Origin: Enterococcus sp. | Lineage (GTDB): Bacteria > Bacillota > Bacilli > Lactobacillales > Enterococcaceae | NCBI RefSeq assembly: GCF_022711995.1 | Contig: NZ_JALAHI010000058.1 | Span: 1-64,000, forward strand | DNA: 64,000 bases | Direction of reading: 5' to 3' | Shown: in pieces, positions 38,698 to 62,633 of the stretch | Position numbering within the stretch: position 1 is the first letter of the stretch | Layout of the letters: each line of letters begins with the position of its first letter | Position numbers and translations under genes: made by a program | The notes under the pieces: generated by a model | What the model was told of the DNA's origin: nothing | Databases searched by the model: none | Seen by the model: the letters and a program-made list of their open reading frames with translations, nothing else

Positions 38698-40428
38698 TTA
38701 CTTCTTTTGATTTTTTGGTCCTCTGAGGATCGAAAACAGCTGCCTTTTTTTCCAAAGAAAACCGAGAGCCAATAGGAGCCATGCAGCCATCGTTACCCAC
38801 AGTCCCCAGTCAAAGTACCAAGGTGCATCATAGTCGACGATCAGCTCATTAAGTCCTGTCTGTTGCTTAACTGAAACCGCACCAATCGTACTCAATTTGA
38901 TGTCTGAAGGTTTCAATGGCTGGCCATTAAGCTGTAATGTCGTTCGTTGATAATTGATGACTGGCAACGCCTTCCAACCAGAATCATCTCCTTGCCAGCG
39001 CAAAATCAACTGACCATTAACCACTGCTTTTTGCACAGTTTTATTTTTCTCGATGATTTGTTCCCCATAGGCATTGTATTTATTTTCCTTTGTCTCGCGA
39101 TAGATAGGAACATAGTCTGGTGTTGACCGTTGGAACAGTACCAATGCCTTCGCTTTGTCTTGACTAAAATACGCCTCTTTTAAAGTCTGTTGATCAGAAG
39201 TAAACAGATAGGAATGGTTCCTGACTTTTACCGCTGAATCGCTGGATTGCCACTCACTCATTTTGGTACTGGTTTGGAACATGATCTGACCCACACTGAC
39301 AATTAAAAGCAAAATCAGCCAAATCGGTCGATTCAGGCGGCTATCAGCCACATAAGGACGCAAAAGGCATAACCCTGCTAGGATCAGCACAGTTGCCGGA
39401 ACAAAAAAGCGAAATGGAAACTGGATCAATTCAATCAATGGATTTTCCAGACTCGCTAACCATTGCCAAGGCAGATAATTGGAAGAAAGCAGGAAGAAAA
39501 TACCGGCAACTACCGTCAGCATCTTCAGTCCTTTAGACAACTGCCGCCATTTCATCAATGCTCCGGCAAAAAACACGCCACAGAGCAATGGGAAAAGATA
39601 GGGAGATGTCCACCAATAACTGCTAGTGCCAGTAATCGTATTTTGTTCCATATTGTGATTGACAAACGGCGGCAATAATTGATTGCTGCGGTATAGATCA
39701 AGCATTGCTAGCCAAATATTAGCAGTCAGCAGAAGAAAAATACCAATTGCCGCGGCTAAATGGAGGAGCAACTGTTTTTTTTCTTGGCTTTTCAAAAACG
39801 TGCTTAAAAAGAATGGAATATAGATCAAAACCAATAAAACACTAGAAAAAACATGGATTTGAAATAGCGCAGCCACTGAGACACCTACAGCGAAAGGTCG
39901 AATTCGTTGAAAGCGCGTCATATCGATCAATGGAATCAGACAAAAAGGCAGTATCGCTGCCCCCCAAGCCGAAAAGCCTTGTCGTTCGACCCAGTATTGG
40001 ATCGAATAAGTGGTCATAAAAAGAATCCCCATACCTACAGACAACCAGCCGGAAACGTTCAATTTCCGCAACAACGTGTACATGGAAGTTCCTGCCAAAA
40101 GGTACAGCAGCCCATTTGAGAGGAGTTGGTATTGAAACCAAGAATGACTGATTAAAACCAATATTCCTTGAAAATAGGCAAAAAACGGCCCATACAATGC
40201 ATTGACAATCCGTCCAGATTGTTGGAAACCATAAATGGAAAGAAAGTACTGATAGTTTCCTTCCTTGATTTGCTGACTCGTCTCATAGAACCGATTAAAA
40301 TGAAAGACGACATCTGATCCCAAAATCAAGCCCCGCCCGAACAATTGCGGCAATAATAGCAGTATGCTTACAGAGAAAATAACGAGCAATTGCAGAACTG
40401 TTGGCTTGAATAAAATTGTTTTTTTCAC
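38698..40428 (-). CDS. Large multi-pass membrane protein (PTPS-related / GT-C-like)
   Basis: 576 residues with about 11-13 TM helices, a loop rich in charged residues near the N-terminus (GSDVVFHFNRFYE) and an extracellular C-terminal domain (about 405-545) before the final TM helix (about 549-566). It resembles the 6-pyruvoyl-tetrahydropterin synthase-related membrane proteins, which look like GT-C glycosyltransferases; the D-x-x-F-H in the first loop would fit a catalytic acid. Function not known. The start is the GTG at 40428 (VKKTILFKP), with AAGGAGG 7 bases upstream. It is a stand-alone gene beside the flagellar locus. Confidence 0.8.
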   Translation of the reverse strand: MKKTILFKPTVLQLLVIFSVSILLLLPQLFGRGLILGSDVVFHFNRFYETSQQIKEGNYQYFLSIYGFQQSGRIVNALYGPFFAYFQGILVLISHSWFQYQLLSNGLLYLLAGTSMYTLLRKLNVSGWLSVGMGILFMTTYSIQYWVERQGFSAWGAAILPFCLIPLIDMTRFQRIRPFAVGVSVAALFQIHVFSSVLLVLIYIPFFLSTFLKSQEKKQLLLHLAAAIGIFLLLTANIWLAMLDLYRSNQLLPPFVNHNMEQNTITGTSSYWWTSPYLFPLLCGVFFAGALMKWRQLSKGLKMLTVVAGIFFLLSSNYLPWQWLASLENPLIELIQFPFRFFVPATVLILAGLCLLRPYVADSRLNRPIWLILLLIVSVGQIMFQTSTKMSEWQSSDSAVKVRNHSYLFTSDQQTLKEAYFSQDKAKALVLFQRSTPDYVPIYRETKENKYNAYGEQIIEKNKTVQKAVVNGQLILRWQGDDSGWKALPVINYQRTTLQLNGQPLKPSDIKLSTIGAVSVKQQTGLNELIVDYDAPWYFDWGLWVTMAAWLLLALGFLWKKRQLFSILRGPKNQKK

Positions 40429-40624
40429 TAAATGACCTCCTTGCAAAACAGTTCTTATTTTTTAGAATAACAGAATTGTCGTATAAGGTAAAAAATAAGC
40501 CTTTTTGAAAAGGGTATCATTGTAAAAATTTAATGAACACGCTACTAGATAGAAAAACTTGAAGAAATAGACGAACATTTACGTATCAATAAACGCTCTT
40601 GCTATTATGGGGAATTACTTAAAG

Positions 40625-41147: not shown

Positions 41148-41477
41148 CTAATAGTCGAATTCGACAAATCCAGCGACATCTTCTTGCTGTAAATAGGTTT
41201 TCACCAAATTATTCTGTCGATTTAAACGTCCCATTTCTTGTTTGATAAGTGTTTGTTGTGCCTGCACTTGTGTGAGAAATGCTTGATAAGCAGCGACGAC
41301 TTTTTCGACTAGCGCTTGGGTCTGTTTTGTTCGAGTTTGAGTGTCTGTCAAAGTGGCTAAAAGCTCGGCATTGGTTGCCAACAGCTCTTCCGCTTGTTCT
41401 ACTTCACCGTTCCAATCCATCAACCCTTGTAAAATACGTGTTAATCGTTCGTCCAGTGTAGGTACGTTATTTTCCAA
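41148..41477 (-). CDS. fliT: FliT-like flagellar chaperone
   Basis: Small, acidic, all-helical protein of 109 residues, rich in Gln, Leu and Glu (VEQAEELLATNAELLATLTD) with coiled-coil character. Its place between fliD and fliS is that of FliT, the chaperone of the filament cap FliD; sequence similarity among FliT proteins is low, so the call rests mostly on position and fold type. TTG start at 41477 with GAGG 9 bases upstream. Confidence 0.65.
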   Translation of the reverse strand: MENNVPTLDERLTRILQGLMDWNGEVEQAEELLATNAELLATLTDTQTRTKQTQALVEKVVAAYQAFLTQVQAQQTLIKQEMGRLNRQNNLVKTYLQQEDVAGFVEFDY

Positions 41478-42915: not shown

Positions 42916-43067
42916 TTGCTCATCCCTTTCTAGTGCGCGTTGTCTTCAACCGATGCCTAAGCAAATACATCCTATGCTGCTCAGATCCAGCTGTTTTGCG
43001 CGAATTATTTCCTGCACCGAATCTCAGAGGTTCTCCAACAAAGTGTTCACATTCTTGCAGACATAAA

Positions 43068-43131
43068 AAACAGCACCGTTTCCTATGCCCTGTGATGACA
43101 GACCGAAGTGTCCGGCCTGATGCCTTGCTGT
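43068..43131 (-). other. Structured element in the fliD leader
   Basis: Minus strand: ACAGCA pairs with TGCTGT, closing a 50-base region that holds a 7-bp hairpin (CAGGCCG/CGGTCTG), and is followed by TTTTTT. It looks like an internal terminator within the long fliD leader. The remainder of the 371-bp flagellin-fliD gap holds the promoter at 43176 and the flagellin terminator. No known riboswitch class was recognised. Confidence 0.4.
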
Positions 43132-43175
43132 AAAACTGGCTTAATTTTGTGACGCTCTTTGTTTGGTGCCTCTTC

Positions 43176-43204
43176 ATTATGTGAATTATGTGAGTGGTCA
43201 TCAA
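43176..43204 (-). promoter_or_regulatory. Candidate sigma-A promoter for fliD-fliT-fliS
   Basis: Minus strand: -35 TTGATG (43199-43204), 17-bp spacer, -10 CATAAT (43176-43181). It lies just beyond the flagellin terminator and would give a leader of about 250 bases. No sigma-28 motif is seen in this gap. Confidence 0.5.
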
Positions 43205-56152: not shown

Positions 56153-57448
56153 TTAGATTTTAAAGCTATCCACTTGGAACTTCAGAATACTTGCAATCGT
56201 TTCAATCTCTTGTGCATTTGCTTCAAATTCTTCCACGACCAGATAGAAATCTTCCAAATTGGCCGTCACTTCTTGTGTGCCTGCGGAAGTCTCTGAAACA
56301 GCAGCTGAAATATTGCTGACAGATACTTGAACCATATCTTTTTTCTCCACAATACCGGTGATATGTGATTCAACTGTTTGGATACTCATTACTAATTTTT
56401 CAACAATATCAGAAATTTCATCCGCTAATCCGATTGCTTTATTGACGTTTTCTGTTTGTTTTTTCCCGCCTTCGTAAGAAGTCATCGCCGCTGAAACAAC
56501 TTTTTCCGATTTTTTGCGGACAGATTCGATGATGTCGCGAATACTTTTTGTCGATTGACTGCTTTGTTCAGCTAAGCTACGTACTTCTTCAGCCACGATA
56601 GCAAACCCACGTCCCGCTTCTCCAGCGCGAGCTGCTTCAATGGACGCATTCAATGCTAATAGATTGGTTTGATCCGAAATATCATTGATCAACTGGACGA
56701 TTTTACCGATACTTTGAATATCTTCATTCATATCATTCATGCCATCCACTAATTCGGCTTGGTTTCGTCGTTCAACTTCCCAGCTTTTTGATACTTGCAG
56801 CATTACTTCCGAATTGCGTTGATTACTGCCATGGGATTTCTCCACATACCCATTCATCAAGTTGATTTCATTATGGATATCTTCAATACTTGTTGCTAAC
56901 TGATTCATATCAAAAGAGGTCTGTTCAGCTTCTGAAGCTTGTGAGCTAGCCGCATTGGCGATAGCATTCATTGTTTGGCGAACATTTTCGATAGATGTTT
57001 TGGCGTTTTTGGAGGTGGAAGACAAATGGCCAACCATCTCTGTCATGCGTGAGCTTTCTTCACGCATGACAGAGATCATTGCTTTAAAAGTATTCAAGAC
57101 GCCTTTAAAACTATCCTTTACTTTTTTGAAGAGTGGATCATTCCCCGCATTGCTCATTGAATCAATATGAGAAAGATCCCCTGAACTAACGCGTTTCAAT
57201 TCTGTCAATAAGGTTTCCATTCCCATATGTCCCGCTTGCTTCACCACAAAAGATAGCGCGATGAGGATGACAAATTCCAATAAGAGGACGATTAATGAAA
57301 AAATAAAGAACGTGTGGGTCAACTGCTTGTCTCCATAGGTGCGTAATACAAAAAGATAGCAACCGAGTAAGACAACAGCCGTAATAATTAAAGGAATCAG
57401 TGTAGAAAGGCGGATTTTTTTGATAACAGTTTGTAACTTATTCTTCAT
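56153..57448 (-). CDS. Methyl-accepting chemotaxis protein lacking an extracellular sensor domain
   Basis: Receptor of 431 residues. Two TM helices (about 15-35 and 46-69) are joined by only about ten residues, so there is no periplasmic-type ligand domain. A HAMP-like or linker region (about 75-115) is followed by a long coiled coil with the highly conserved hairpin [20 protein letters not shown] and [18 protein letters not shown]. It must sense through the membrane, a cytoplasmic partner or the cell energy state (inference). First gene of the chemotaxis block, with its own sigma-28 promoter. Confidence 0.93.
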
Positions 57449-57535
57449 GACAGTATCCTTTCCTGTGCGATATGATCGTCAATGATTTTTATCAAGATTC
57501 GCTCTTCACTTGATAAGCGCGGTGTCACTCCTTCT

Positions 57536-57579
57536 TTATCCGATTATGAAAACAATCTCCTAGTTCCCTAATCGGATAA
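57536..57579. repeat. Inverted repeat in the mcp promoter region
   Basis: TTATCCGATTA (57536-57546) and TAATCGGATAA (57569-57579) are exact 11-bp complements separated by 22 bp. The right arm contains the -10 of the mcp sigma-28 promoter. No T-tract follows on either strand, so it is not a terminator. Confidence 0.7.
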
Positions 57580-57594
57580 TTCACCAAAAATTTA
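57569..57594 (-). promoter_or_regulatory. Sigma-28 promoter of the mcp-che-fliM-fliY block
   Basis: Minus strand: TAAA (57591-57594), 15 bp, CCGATTA (57569-57575), a consensus-like FliA/sigma-D promoter about 120 bp before mcp. No terminator separates this block from the upstream one, so readthrough is likely too. Confidence 0.8.
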
Positions 57595-57601
57595 AGACTT
57601 G

Positions 57602-58312
57602 TCACCAGACATAGGTATCTTTTGGATCCGCAAAACGGGTATACCCACCCTCGCGATCATCACGTACCAGCCGTCCTTCTTTAAGCTCAAAGACACGGTT
57701 TCGCACGGTATTGACCATCGTACTATCATGGGTAGCAAGAAGCACCGTTGCTCCTAGCTGATTGAACTTTAAGAACAGCTTCATGATTTCCAATGCTGAC
57801 TTGATGTCTAAGTTCGCGGTGGGTTCATCAGCGATCAATACTGGTGGATCCGTAACGATCGCTCGAGCAATCGCAATTTTCTTGCATTGACCTACAGATA
57901 ATTCCTGGGGATAACAGGATTGATAAGCGGTCATTCCCACCATCTGTAATGCTTTGCTGGTTTTTTCTTTGCGGACTTTTCGCGGAACCCCTAGTACCCG
58001 CAATGCATACTCAACATTTTTATATGCAGTCATATGCGGCAGTAATAAATCTTCTTGCTGGACGATCCCGACCTGTCGGCGAATCATGTAAAGATGACGA
58101 TCGCTCAATTTTTCTAGTAAAACATTCCCGATTTGAATAGAGCCTGCTGAAAGATTTTCCTCTTTCAGCAGCAACTTGAACAGTGTCGATTTACCAGAGC
58201 CACTTGGTCCTACAATATAGATAAATTCGCCTTGCGAGATCTCAGCGGTGACATTCGCTAATGCTAGCGTACCATTGGGAAACTGTTTGCTGACCTTGGT
58301 TAATCGAATCAT
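57602..58312 (-). CDS. Solitary FtsE-like ABC ATPase in the flagellar operon
   Basis: ATP-binding protein of 236 residues resembling FtsE/LolD-type ATPases: Walker A GPSGSGKST, Q-loop region VGIVQQEDLLLPHM, Walker B VLIADEPTANLD and H-loop ATHDS. The signature is LSVGQCKKIAIARA rather than LSGGEQQR. No FtsX-like permease gene is adjacent; the neighbours are flgG and mcp, 11 bases and about 150 bases away. It is cytoplasmic. It may act with a flagellar or division membrane protein, but its role is unknown. AGGAG lies before the ATG. Confidence 0.85.
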   Translation of the reverse strand: MIRLTKVSKQFPNGTLALANVTAEISQGEFIYIVGPSGSGKSTLFKLLLKEENLSAGSIQIGNVLLEKLSDRHLYMIRRQVGIVQQEDLLLPHMTAYKNVEYALRVLGVPRKVRKEKTSKALQMVGMTAYQSCYPQELSVGQCKKIAIARAIVTDPPVLIADEPTANLDIKSALEIMKLFLKFNQLGATVLLATHDSTMVNTVRNRVFELKEGRLVRDDREGGYTRFADPKDTYVW

Positions 58313-58323
58313 AGTTCTCTCCT

Positions 58324-59106
58324 CTAATTAGTAAAACGATTGACAACAGCCAACATATCATCGGTTGTTTGCATAGCTTTGGTGTTGAGCGCATACGCTC
58401 TTTGTGTTGTTAACAATTCCGTCATCGAACTAGCTAAGTCTACATTGGACCCTTCTAAATAGTGTTGATTGATGGTTCCGAATGCAGCTGGATCTGCTTG
58501 AGAGCTCGTTAACTGGGCATTCTGTGATTGAAATAACTGGTTCCCAACAGGAACTAAATCATTCACATTGGAAGGATTGTAAAGAGTCAATTGCCCTAAC
58601 ATCACCGTCTGTCCGTTTTGCTGAGTCATTAAGCGGCCAGCAGAATCAATTTGAATATTTTGCGCATTTGGCCATTGATTGGTAGGTACTGTCGTCGTCA
58701 TAGCTACAGGATAGCCATCACTGGTAACTAACCCTTTTGTTGCATCTAATTGGAAATTCCCTGCCCTAGTTAAAAGCAGCTCATTGTTTTCATTCCGGAC
58801 ACCAAAGAAACCCGCTCCTTGGATCGCCACATCTAATGGCTGACTGCTAGCCGTCAACGCCCCTTGTCCAAAATTGGTTCCGGTGGTTGCTGAAGAACCA
58901 ACGTTCCAACCATACTGGGCAGCATTACCACTAAAGTAAACTTCCTCATTAGATACTGCATTATTGATCAGTTCCTTGAAGTGAGTTGTTTGCGCTTGAT
59001 AACCATTCGTATTGACATTCGCAATATTATTGGCAACATTATCTAAGTTCTTTTGCAAACTATTCATTCCTGAACGACTGATCCCTAATAAACCGTTCAT
59101 ATTCAT
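58324..59106 (-). CDS. flgG: Flagellar rod/hook-basal body protein (FlgG/FlhP-like)
   Basis: Axial protein of 260 residues with the rod-family N-terminus (SGMNSLQKNLDNVANNIANVNTNGYQ), the central FlgE/F/G domain with VAIQGAGFFGVRN, and the C-terminal domain (LEGSNVDLASSMTELLTTQRAYALNTKAMQTTD). In B. subtilis two such genes, flhO and flhP, are also paired. The start is MNMNGLLG with an adjacent pair of ATG codons. It lies 10 bases after flgF. Confidence 0.9.
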   Translation of the reverse strand: MNMNGLLGISRSGMNSLQKNLDNVANNIANVNTNGYQAQTTHFKELINNAVSNEEVYFSGNAAQYGWNVGSSATTGTNFGQGALTASSQPLDVAIQGAGFFGVRNENNELLLTRAGNFQLDATKGLVTSDGYPVAMTTTVPTNQWPNAQNIQIDSAGRLMTQQNGQTVMLGQLTLYNPSNVNDLVPVGNQLFQSQNAQLTSSQADPAAFGTINQHYLEGSNVDLASSMTELLTTQRAYALNTKAMQTTDDMLAVVNRFTN

Positions 59107-59116
59107 TCGTTTATCC

Positions 59117-59818
59117 TCAAATCTTTCCTAGTTCATTGACTGCTTTTTGTAGTGTTTCATTGGTAGAGTTCAATACTTTTTGGTTTGCTTCAAATTCTCT
59201 TGATGTTTGGATCATGGCCACCATTTCATCGGCAACGAGTACATTGGCTTCTTCCAAATACCCTTGCTGAACCGTTGGAGCCGCCGCGAGAGTTCCTGCA
59301 TTGTCGCTGGTGTAATAAGTTTCGCCATTGGCAATCAGCTGATCTGTTGCAAATAGACGCACTTGAAATTGCGGGTTATCCGTTGCTGTGACGGGTTGAT
59401 TGCCATTCCCTAAAACGGTGTAGCCTTCTTGCGTCACGTATTGGTTTTGCTGATTAAGGGTGAAATCCCCTTTGCGTGTATATAAAGTCTCCCCTGCAGG
59501 TGTTCGTACTGCAAAGTAGCCTTCAGAAAGCAGTGCAAAATCGGTTGCTTGCCCTGTTTGCTTCACTGCACCTTGTGTCTGTTCCAAACTGATGCCGGCT
59601 AATTGGTTGCCGAATGCTAATCCGCCAATATCATGACGCCGATTAGCCTGCGCACCTCCCTGGTAATTATGTAAATCCACTTCATCTAATGTTGATTGAA
59701 ATAGTCGTTTGGCTTGATAGCCAGTGGTTTTGACATTGGCGATATTGCCACTGGTCGTTTCTTGCCGTTTTTGTAACACATTGATGTTGCGGGAAAGAAT
59801 GTCTAATCCTCGAATCAT
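59117..59818 (-). CDS. flgF: Flagellar rod protein (FlgF/FlhO-like)
   Basis: Rod-family protein of 233 residues: N-terminal MIRGLDILSRNINVLQKRQE then SGNIANVKTTGYQAK, central DFALLSEGYFAVRTPAGETLYTR, and C-terminal GYLEEANVLVADEMVAMIQTSREFEANQKVL. Pairs with the next gene as in flhO-flhP. Its ATG overlaps the fliA stop (ATGA), so the sigma factor and rod proteins are translationally coupled. Confidence 0.88.
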   Translation of the reverse strand: MIRGLDILSRNINVLQKRQETTSGNIANVKTTGYQAKRLFQSTLDEVDLHNYQGGAQANRRHDIGGLAFGNQLAGISLEQTQGAVKQTGQATDFALLSEGYFAVRTPAGETLYTRKGDFTLNQQNQYVTQEGYTVLGNGNQPVTATDNPQFQVRLFATDQLIANGETYYTSDNAGTLAAAPTVQQGYLEEANVLVADEMVAMIQTSREFEANQKVLNSTNETLQKAVNELGKI

Positions 59819-60525
59819 GCTAATTCCTCCTTGATCAATACTCGTAATTTAGCTACCATTTTGCCGTGGATCTGTGAGACCCGCGGGATCGAGATTTCTA
59901 AGATCTCGGCAATCTCTTTGAGTGTCAACTCTTCGGTGTAATACAAACTCAAAATCAACTGCTCTCTTTCCCCAAGCTTTTTGATGCAGGTGGTCAATGC
60001 TTGCAGACGTTCTGCTTCTAATAAAGACTCTTCCACGTCCACTGCATCCTTATCGCTGATAGAATCTTTGATCGTCATCCCATCATCTTGAGAAGAAAAT
60101 AAGGTGTCTTCTAATGAAACACTGGCTAAATAATGCAAGCTTTCATAAATATCTGCCAATTGTCCGCGGTTGATTCCCATCTGTTTAGCGATTTCTAGAT
60201 CCGTCGCTTCTCGTTTCAAGGTTTGCTCTAATTCTTGTCGTGCTTGGTAAAATTGGTTGACTGCCGCCATTTTATAGCGTGAGATTTTTGCATGCTTGCG
60301 TACTTCGTCAATGATCGCTCCTTTGATGCGAAGGACCGCATAACTTTCAAAAGGCACTTTTTTCGTCGGATCGAATTTATTTAAGGCATCCATCAATCCG
60401 ATGACTCCAATGTTGAATAGATCGCCTTGTTCGTAATCTGTCGTTTTGATCGACATTCGCTGGACTACGCGTTCGACTAGAGGAAGGTATTTGATGATTT
60501 CTGTTTCTCTATCCACTTCATACAT
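59815..60525 (-). CDS. fliA: Flagellar sigma factor sigma-28 (FliA/SigD)
   Basis: RNA polymerase sigma factor of 236 residues that recognises TAAA-N15-CCGATAT promoters. Region 2 (QGDLFNIGVIGLMDALNKFDP, FESYAVLRIKGAIIDEVRK), region 3 (TDLEIAKQMGINRGQLADI) and region 4 (EELTLKEIAEILEISIPRVSQIH) are complete. It should read the three sigma-28 promoters in this window and be held back by FlgM. It follows flhA by 32 bases. Confidence 0.95.
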   Translation of the reverse strand: MYEVDRETEIIKYLPLVERVVQRMSIKTTDYEQGDLFNIGVIGLMDALNKFDPTKKVPFESYAVLRIKGAIIDEVRKHAKISRYKMAAVNQFYQARQELEQTLKREATDLEIAKQMGINRGQLADIYESLHYLASVSLEDTLFSSQDDGMTIKDSISDKDAVDVEESLLEAERLQALTTCIKKLGEREQLILSLYYTEELTLKEIAEILEISIPRVSQIHGKMVAKLRVLIKEELA

Positions 60526-60557: not shown

Positions 60558-62633
60558 TCATATCTCAATGCTGCCTACCGTTTCAATAGCAATTTCATTA
60601 GGGATCTCATTCAATGACAAGATTGCCAAATCTGGAAAATTGAATGTGATCATCTTCTTAAATGGCAAGCGAATCTTCGGTGAAGCAAGAATCACGAAGG
60701 AAACATTTTGAGCAATGGCTGTATGTTGGATCGTATTGATCGAATCCAAAATTTTCGTCACTGTCTCTGGTTTTAAGACGGGATAAGAACCTGTGGCTGT
60801 CTTTTGAATACTTTGAGCGATCATTTCTTCTAATTTAGGATGAATGACAGCGACTTTCAGCTCATGCTGTTCACCAATATATTTTGCCACGATGGTTCGT
60901 TTTAGTGCTTGACGGACATATTCTGTCAAAACTTCTATATCTTTTGTTACCACACCATAATCCGCCAATGTTTCTAATATCGTCGCTAGGTCATTGATAG
61001 GAATCTGTTCATCTAAAAGATTCTGCAGTACCTTTTGAACTTCCCCAAGCCTTAAAATATCAGGAATCAATTCATCAATGACTACGTTATACTGCTCTTT
61101 GATGCCTTCCAGAAGTTTCTTGACTTCTTGACGTCCCAGCAATTCTGGTGCATGGCTATAAATGATTTCTTTCAGATGCGTTGCGATTACCGTTAATGGT
61201 TCAATGATTGTAAAGCCTTGGAGCTCTGCCAACTCTTTGTCTTTCTCATCGATCCACATCGCATCTAAATGAAAGGCTGGTTCTTTGGTTGCAATTCCTT
61301 CGAAAGGAAAAGGCTCTTCATTGGGGCTAATGACCATTACTTTGTTTGGATAAATATCGCCTCGTCCTACTTCATTTCCCCGAATCTTGATCACGTAATC
61401 ATTTGATTCCAGATAAAGATTATCCCGAATACGAACCGGACTGACTAAGATGCCTAGCTCGCGGGCACTTTGCTTCCGAATGGCGACGATACGATTCATC
61501 AAGCTATTGTCAATCGAACTATCAACGATTGGAATCAATCCGTAGCCAATTTCAACTGCAATAGGCTCTACTTGGAAAGAAGCGACAGAATCGTCCTCTT
61601 CCTGCGCTTCCTTTTTGCGTTCCAAAGCCAGTTTCTGTTCTAGTTTCTTTTGTTCCGTCCGTTGTTTTTCTTCTTGTTGCGTGATCATAAAACTTCCGGC
61701 AAACAGACCGCCGCCAATCAAAATGAAAGGAAGTGGCGGAAATCCGGGTACGATGGCCAAGACAAAAAGGATCGCACCTACGATTCGGAAAAGTTGCGGA
61801 TTTCTTGTCACATCCGCCGCAATATCCAACCCGAAAGAACTATTATTGTCTGAACGAGTAACAATCACCCCTGAAGCAATGGAGATCAGCAATGACGGAA
61901 TCGAACTAACCAAGCCATCCCCAATCGCCAATTTGCCAAACTGGGAGAAAGCCTCCATGACGGTCATCTGTCCACCCATGGAAAAGATGATCGCGCCGCC
62001 GACCAAGTTGATGACTGTGATCATGATCCCGGCGATCGCATCCCCTTTGACAAACTTACTGGCACCATCCATCGAACCGAAGAAGTCAGCTTCCCGTTGC
62101 AAATCTTTCCGACGTTGTCGAGCATCGGCTTCCGTAATCAATCCGGCATTCAAATCGGAGTCGATCGCCATTTGCTTCCCTGGCATTGCATCCAATGTGA
62201 AACGAGCCGTCACTTCTGAGACCCGTCCCGCACCATTGGTCACGACCGCTAACTGAACAACCATGATGATCACGAATAAAATGATCCCAACGATATAATT
62301 ACTCCCAGCAACGACATTGGCGAAGGCATCAATAACATGCCCCCCATTTCCTTGGGTTAGGATCAACCGTGTCGAAGACAGATTCAATCCTAAGCGAAAC
62401 ATTGTTGTGATCAAAAGCAGTGTAGGAAAAGTAGTAAATTCCAACACCGTTTTAGTAAACAGAGTAATCAGCAGAATGTTGATCGCAATCGTTAGATTGA
62501 CAATGATCAAAAAGTCTAAAATAGCTGCTGGTAAAGGAATAATGATTAATCCGATAATTCCGATCACTAAAAAAGAGATCAGAACATCTGCATAACCGAT
62601 TTTTCTCTTAGATTTTGCTACTGCCTCATTCAT
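60558..62633 (-). CDS. flhA: Flagellar export gate protein FlhA
   Basis: Export-gate protein of 691 residues. About eight TM helices (1-320), the FHIPEP signature region (RVSEVTARFTLDAMPGKQMA with GLITEADARQRR) and a large cytoplasmic domain that binds chaperone-substrate complexes. ATG start just after the flhB stop (15-base gap). Essential for type III flagellar export. Confidence 0.96.
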   Translation of the reverse strand: MNEAVAKSKRKIGYADVLISFLVIGIIGLIIIPLPAAILDFLIIVNLTIAINILLITLFTKTVLEFTTFPTLLLITTMFRLGLNLSSTRLILTQGNGGHVIDAFANVVAGSNYIVGIILFVIIMVVQLAVVTNGAGRVSEVTARFTLDAMPGKQMAIDSDLNAGLITEADARQRRKDLQREADFFGSMDGASKFVKGDAIAGIMITVINLVGGAIIFSMGGQMTVMEAFSQFGKLAIGDGLVSSIPSLLISIASGVIVTRSDNNSSFGLDIAADVTRNPQLFRIVGAILFVLAIVPGFPPLPFILIGGGLFAGSFMITQQEEKQRTEQKKLEQKLALERKKEAQEEDDSVASFQVEPIAVEIGYGLIPIVDSSIDNSLMNRIVAIRKQSARELGILVSPVRIRDNLYLESNDYVIKIRGNEVGRGDIYPNKVMVISPNEEPFPFEGIATKEPAFHLDAMWIDEKDKELAELQGFTIIEPLTVIATHLKEIIYSHAPELLGRQEVKKLLEGIKEQYNVVIDELIPDILRLGEVQKVLQNLLDEQIPINDLATILETLADYGVVTKDIEVLTEYVRQALKRTIVAKYIGEQHELKVAVIHPKLEEMIAQSIQKTATGSYPVLKPETVTKILDSINTIQHTAIAQNVSFVILASPKIRLPFKKMITFNFPDLAILSLNEIPNEIAIETVGSIEI

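Follow-up and report, generated by a model that had tools for sequence, protein, structure and literature searches.

Introduction

In flagellar operons of the Bacillus and Listeria type, FlhF and FlhG have their genes among those for the flagellum itself, and FlgJ is the rod-cap hydrolase of Gram-negative flagella. To our knowledge, there is no dedicated flagellar-operon gene for the passage of the rod through the thick Gram-positive wall, or for wall cutting or separation in motile cells. The known systems closest to the protein considered here are the ATPases of FtsEX (TIGR02673) and, more generally, those of the MacB/LolD type (type VII ABC systems). In E. coli FtsE, Arg78 contacts the coupling helix of FtsX and the R78A variant is defective, according to PMC11491553; for S. 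pneumoniae FtsE, PMC7468199 describes a pocket phenylalanine, Phe87, and reports a Kd of ~82 nM for the FtsX coupling-helix peptide, measured by thermophoresis.

We analyzed a 64,000-nucleotide stretch of Enterococcus DNA (the window) that carries an orphan FtsE paralogue, here called ftsE-fla, within a flagellar operon. A second, clearly different FtsE without a membrane partner of its own is located behind a rod gene in most sampled flagellated lactic acid bacteria and their relatives, and ftsE-fla is a conserved flagellar gene. It shares with FtsE the fold, the Walker motifs, the Arg78–Arg79 pair, a similar length and 47% identity to the canonical FtsE of the same genome, which is its nearest in-genome relative. 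It differs from FtsE in scoring under the cut-off of the FtsE model, in being unpaired with ftsX, in forming a clade of its own, in its place in a flagellar operon, in an extra C-terminal tail and, in three families, in a variant signature. The general ABC fold and the coupling-helix groove are common to ftsE-fla and the MacB/LolD-type ATPases, but the adjacent or fused permease that marks the latter is lacking. Like FlhF and FlhG, the product would be a nucleotide-binding accessory protein encoded near flhA; however, it is an ABC ATPase, related neither to the SRP-type GTPase domain of FlhF (TIGR03499) nor to the MinD-type ATPase FlhG, and its gene sits behind flgG. If the FtsX reading developed below is right, ftsE-fla would, like FlgJ, tie rod assembly to wall hydrolysis, although it is an ATPase and not a hydrolase.

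Sequence and structural model

The initial annotation described a complete FtsE-type ABC ATPase, flanked by the rod genes and mcp and lacking a permease, and the open reading frame, the context and the profile match all agree with that description, as does the sequence with the signature it gave, LSVGQCKK (Table 1). In the window copy, Lys41, Gln86, Asp162, Glu163 and His195, which cover Walker A, the Q-loop, Walker B and the switch histidine, are all intact. The top NCBIfam model is FtsE (TIGR02673), at 224.2 bits against a cut-off of 264.85. The canonical ftsE–ftsX pair of the genome is found at a separate locus, near genes that we take to be prfB and secA, and no permease gene lies beside the window copy, which is flanked by the rod gene and mcp. 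Together with the separate clade described below, the separate locus and the score below the TIGR02673 cut-off bear out the earlier view that this is not the division FtsE.

Table 1 Features of the ftsE-fla locus, with positions in the window.
Feature	Position	Strand	Remarks	Basis
ftsE-fla, orphan FtsE paralogue	57602..58312	-	ATG start, 236 aa, intact	ORF and profile match
Walker A, GPSGSGKST	58184..58210	-	residues 35-43 of ftsE-fla	sequence
Arg78-Arg79	58076..58081	-	in alignment, at the positions through which E. coli FtsE contacts the FtsX coupling helix	alignment, PMC11491553
Variant ABC signature, LSVGQCKK	57878..57901	-	residues 138-145 of ftsE-fla	sequence
C-terminal tail, DPKDTYVW	57605..57628	-	residues 229-236 of ftsE-fla; conserved; canonical FtsE lacks the tail; low model confidence	
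FlgF/FlgG-type rod gene	58324..59106	-	directly upstream of ftsE-fla; fixed neighbour in six families	
Second FlgF/FlgG-type rod gene	59117..59818	-		
Sigma-70 family factor	59815..60525	-	flagellar sigma28 position	
flhA	60558..62633	-	marker of flagellated genomes	
mcp	56153..57448	-	gene downstream of ftsE-fla; varies in other families	
Sigma28-like promoter box, TAAA-N15-CCGATT	57570..57594	-	directly after ftsE-fla, before mcp and che genes	consensus match only

The monomer model of the window protein has a mean pLDDT of 90.7, with weak values in the tail (68 and 59 for the last two blocks). Among solved structures, the model comes closest to S. pneumoniae FtsE and, next, to FtsE within FtsEX complexes. 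A scan for related loci returned 30, comprising two flagellar Enterococcus copies (78 and 92%), five FtsE-like Bacillales loci (42–44%) and 23 more remote ABC ATPases. Several source records already name these proteins FtsE; the gene is therefore annotated, but it has not been recognized as far as the literature was searched. No description of a flagellar-operon FtsE homologue was found among titles and the beginnings of abstracts, in keeping with the suggestion in the initial annotation of an undescribed component, and a term search of the main text of five papers on lactobacilli that are motile or carry flagellar genes (PMC3393694, PMC10745875, PMC12688256, PMC7555045 and PMC6004923) returned no ftsE.

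Distribution in flagellated genomes

Genomes were counted as flagellated when flhA was present, a reading from genes rather than from observed motility, and family identities were assigned from named protein matches and FlhA distance (f1, Enterococcaceae; f7, Listeria; f9, Lactobacillaceae; genus g98, Liquorilactobacillus). Among the 105 genomes sampled in f1, flhA is present in 10, and a second FtsE (threshold 1e-55) is found in exactly the same 10 and in 0/95 of the rest, matching the pattern proposed earlier of presence in motile and absence from non-motile enterococci. Absence from non-flagellated genomes is based on these 95, coverage of such genomes in the other families being thin. The order-wide sample of 395 genomes includes 76 with flhA and, combined with the family sample, gives 78 distinct flagellated genomes. 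Seventeen belong to the Listeria-like f7, have a distant FlhA (~32%) and lack a second FtsE. In the other 61, ftsE-fla lies behind flgG in 54 and is missing in five (G105, G202, G223, G239 and G341); two could not be assessed because of masking (G109) or a contig end (G275). In f9, 22 of 301 genomes carry flhA (two overlap the first sample), with ftsE-fla in 18 and absent in four. Pooled over six families, excluding f7, the gene is found behind flgG in 71/81 flagellated genomes, with eight lacking it and two not assessable, the opposite of the absence from most motile relatives that the initial annotation had named as evidence against its proposal.

Searches with tblastn found no remnant of ftsE-fla at the loci of the absent cases. 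Relocated copies were considered for G105, G202 and G223 and rejected, as the second matches there sit in MacAB-like operons encoding different proteins. Because FtsX and both rod genes are present in these three genomes, ftsE-fla is dispensable in them; G239 also has FtsX without ftsE-fla, and the neighbouring rod gene is missing at its locus as well. Outside the order, no orphan copy was found among the matches from ~358 other Bacilli genomes (G658–G1015; threshold 1e-44, best seven candidates per genome scored). Four second FtsE copies in other Bacilli were rejected, one being part of a complete second ftsEX and three being MacAB-like. At one locus outside Lactobacillales (L178, in G694), a second complete ftsE–ftsX pair is followed by the start of a coiled-coil-like protein.

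Operon context

The long flagellar operon that holds ftsE-fla starts past the end of the window. Its order is flgB, flgC, fliE to fliR, flhB, flhA, the sigma factor, two rod genes, ftsE-fla, mcp and che, several of these names being assigned from operon position. Only 11 nt separate the adjacent rod gene from ftsE-fla, and each of the 71 copies in the pooled families is preceded by a co-oriented FlgF/FlgG-type gene, with gaps of -1 to 299 nt. What follows ftsE-fla is more variable: a two-span protein of mcp size at the 28 f1 and f9 loci and likewise at many f2 and f8 loci, and unrelated or opposite-strand genes in f4 and f6. No conserved permease lies behind ftsE-fla across the 71 loci (three of which have <500 nt left), and a permease further down the operon, also considered, was not conserved across loci. 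Multi-span membrane proteins do occur behind the gene in single f4 and f6 genomes (e.g., G129, G212, G219, G302 and G388).

A strict sigma28 pattern is present behind ftsE-fla at 5/10 f1, 9/10 f2, 1/10 f8, 1/1 f9, 1/13 f6 and 1/10 f4 loci, against a background of 4.3% in shuffled f1 sequence; the box is a consensus match. Because it starts right behind the gene, ftsE-fla is likely to be the last gene of the rod-bearing unit in f1 and f2, outside the chemotaxis unit.

Several other elements were noted in the window, all on the minus strand. An inverted repeat, TTATCCGATTA/TAATCGGATAA (57536-57546 and 57569-57579), spans the sigma28-like -10 box and was seen by eye at some related loci too; a hairpin could form in read-through transcripts but would be missing from those made with sigma28. 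A 27-codon frame with a GTG start (57445-57528) has a good ribosome-binding site, overlaps the mcp start codon at its end, as judged by eye, and may encode a leader peptide. Two small ORFs of the flagellar cluster (41148-41477 and 42920-43204; 109 and 94 aa) have no Pfam match, nor does a 582-aa ORF (38698-40446) whose neighbours include genes for a MarR regulator and an ABC exporter.

Phylogeny, selection and sequence variation

The comparison with chromosomal ftsE that had been proposed at the outset yields a clear separation: a single branch (SH-aLRT 98) divides the 63 flagellar copies, which come from six families, from the 48 FtsE sequences. This tree was built with a quick method, draws its FtsE from Lactobacillales and five Bacillales, and leaves out G187 and 7 of the 17 new f9 copies; a smaller, more careful tree of 57 rows has the same split (support 100/99). 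Families f1, f2, f4 and f6 each form one clade, as vertical descent predicts, and f8 and f9 need two changes each.

dN/dS was estimated for nine pairs. Saturation of dS left three of them without a value, and for two others only a single method returned one, in one case at dS 3. Against G048, the nearest sampled congener, the window copy has a dN/dS of 0.033–0.049, a rough figure since dS (1.0–1.5) is near saturation; this constraint and the 10/10 match with flhA in f1 go beyond chance. Across the four catalytically competent pairs that gave values, the range is 0.033–0.075, and for the catalytically degenerate pair G191–G198 it is 0.10–0.11.

The first glycine of the signature is replaced in all f1, f8 and f9 copies. 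The unusual signature, which the initial annotation took as a mark of the gene, had to be given up as a defining feature, being limited to these three families: copies from f2, f4 and intact copies from f6 keep [LC]SGG[EQ]xQR, with LSGGEQQR itself in 10/10 f2 and 2/10 f4 copies and close forms in the remaining f4 and the intact f6 copies. Over the 71 copies, Lys41, Asp162 and Glu163 are retained in 71/71, Gln86 in 68 and His195 in 67, the shortfall lying with the degenerate G171, G191 and G198 and the truncated G187. All but two are full length (69/71), the exceptions being G187, truncated at 192 aa, and G361, altered at its end. Under one loose pattern, a C-terminal aromatic/hydrophobic tail is found in 68/69 full-length flagellar copies and in 0/48 FtsE. 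Three full-length f6 copies, in G171, G191 and G198 (L098, L100 and L101), no longer have the signature, nor the Q-loop glutamine or the switch histidine, and form a predicted pseudo-ATPase group. Their degeneration, combined with purifying selection in the tested pair, suggests a role for which ATP hydrolysis is not required.

FtsX and its contact residues

In 76 of the 78 flagellated genomes, FtsX is present as one full copy adjoining canonical FtsE; it is in two pieces in G300 and missing in G341, and G063 has an additional fragment at a contig end. In f9, 18 of the 22 flagellated genomes have one FtsX, four of these with a further weak match (E 1e-5 to 1e-4) in another frame. A hidden FtsX paralogue was considered, and no full-length second FtsX was found in any flagellated genome tested. 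In genus g77 (G341, G455, G473 and G508), FtsX (threshold 1e-4), canonical FtsE and ftsE-fla (both 1e-40) are jointly missing in 4/4 flagellated genomes. There flhB-flhA-sigma-flgF-flgG-mcp-che are present, the rod genes stand directly before mcp and che, and tblastn found no remnant of ftsE-fla. As the joint absence is seen in a single genus, it is likely to reflect one evolutionary event.

Arg78 is kept in 66/66 undamaged flagellar copies and in 44/44 FtsE, but in only 1/19 other ABC ATPases (19 of 21 loci tried, taken as a group). Arg79 is likewise kept in 66/66, but also in 18/19 of the controls, and is hence common to most ABC ATPases. In the three degenerate copies, position 78 is R, K and K. 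The mean retention in flagellar copies of 54 FtsE-specific invariant positions is 0.57, complete only at Arg78, Gly82 and Asp218. Another residue stands at the position of the pocket phenylalanine (S. pneumoniae Phe87) in every f1 and f9 copy, including that of the window, and in 8/9 f8 copies looked at. Identity in groove regions R2 and R4 is below the whole-protein level in f1, f8, f2, f4 and f6; a preferential loss of conserved groove positions was considered and dismissed (0/15 vs 5/100).

Proposed role and alternatives

Several pieces of evidence suggest that ftsE-fla docks on FtsX: (i) the separate clade, (ii) the tie to genomes with flhA, (iii) the fixed place in the operon with no conserved permease behind it, (iv) the lone FtsX, (v) the joint absence in g77, (vi) the kept Arg78 and (vii) S. 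pneumoniae FtsE as the best structural match. We propose, at about even confidence, that ftsE-fla encodes a flagellum-dedicated alternative ATPase subunit for a shared FtsX. Probably made together with the rod genes, it would bind the sole FtsX of the cell, either substituting for FtsE or alongside it, and thereby redirect the wall hydrolysis that FtsX controls in cells building flagella. As to the outcome, cells might separate in step with motility, or the wall might be loosened locally around the basal body, both more weakly suggested; ftsE-fla could also block FtsEX, and, again more weakly, the conserved tail might recruit the protein to the flagellar base. Catalytic motifs are gone from three copies, yet purifying selection continues to act on the pair tested; what the copies have in common is therefore likely to be occupation or retargeting of FtsX, not ATP hydrolysis as such.

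Other observations weigh against docking on FtsX. The g77 absence concerns one genus and probably one event; FtsX and both rod genes occur without ftsE-fla in G105, G202 and G223, and G239 also lacks ftsE-fla; the pocket phenylalanine is replaced in f1, f9 and most f8 copies, and R2 and R4 have diverged. Arg78 may have persisted through descent alone, Gly82 and Asp218 being kept as fully. The ATPase may, as suggested earlier, open the wall for the rod, but such a step is not obligatory, since eight genomes with flagellar genes do without ftsE-fla: the four of g77 keep the surrounding flagellar genes without FtsX, FtsE or ftsE-fla, and G105, G202, G223 and G239 have FtsX without it.

That the protein has given up FtsX altogether, and acts as a cytoplasmic dimer on a flagellar protein (the export gate, rod export or the basal body) through its C-terminal tail, is an alternative that we regard as doubtful yet worth keeping in view. 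It would account for the place beside flgG, fixed in six families, for the lack of a permease of its own, for the loss of the pocket phenylalanine in f1, f9 and most f8 copies, and for the tail (68/69 against 0/48, by a loose pattern, and modelled with low confidence in the monomer). It would not lead one to expect that the gene is missing jointly with FtsX and FtsE in g77, or that Arg78 is retained in 66/66 copies. Less probable still is that the protein stands in for FlhF (and FlhG), setting the number and place of flagella, possibly via a link to the division site. The window genome has two SRP-type GTPases only and hence no FlhF, as the initial annotation held. Among the 78 first-sample genomes, to which the comparison is confined (the 20 extra f9 genomes lie outside it), a third SRP-type GTPase matching FlhF is found in 17/17 f7 genomes (14/17 over the curated cut-off) and in 0/61 of the others, with the second FtsE showing the opposite pattern. 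Thus, the mutual exclusivity expected of a replacement is there (0/78 with both), but it amounts to a single split in the tree, which proves nothing on function; moreover, G105, G202, G223, G239 and G341 have neither gene, and FlhF belongs to another protein family.

It is improbable that ftsE-fla does the ordinary job of FtsE, as a second division gene that the operon carries along. Its sequence and fold are closest to FtsE and it could share FtsX, but it forms a separate clade across six families with a tail of its own and, in three of them, a signature of its own; within f1 it occurs only in flagellated genomes, and ordinary FtsE work is unlikely for the catalytically degenerate copies. Those three copies, along with the truncation in G187, the altered end in G361 and the eight absences, are what a decaying duplicate without function would explain; this reading, already disfavoured, is highly improbable in view of dN/dS values of 0.033–0.075 in the competent pairs and 0.10–0.11 in G191–G198, and of 69/71 copies being full length.

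Returning to the shared FtsX, we advance more tentatively, as a possibility that we think somewhat less likely to be right than wrong, the broader picture that in flagellated Lactobacillales a dedicated FtsE twin captures FtsX and makes it a shared hub of division and motility. At the septum FtsE would then drive FtsX, and in rod-building cells the twin would do so, or would block FtsX where the twin is a dead ATPase. The degenerate copies are a natural test of the need for ATP hydrolysis, and a conserved FtsE twin behind flgG that is missing together with FtsX in one genus offers a single gene with which to probe a transducer that may be shared by flagellar assembly and the hydrolase switch of division.
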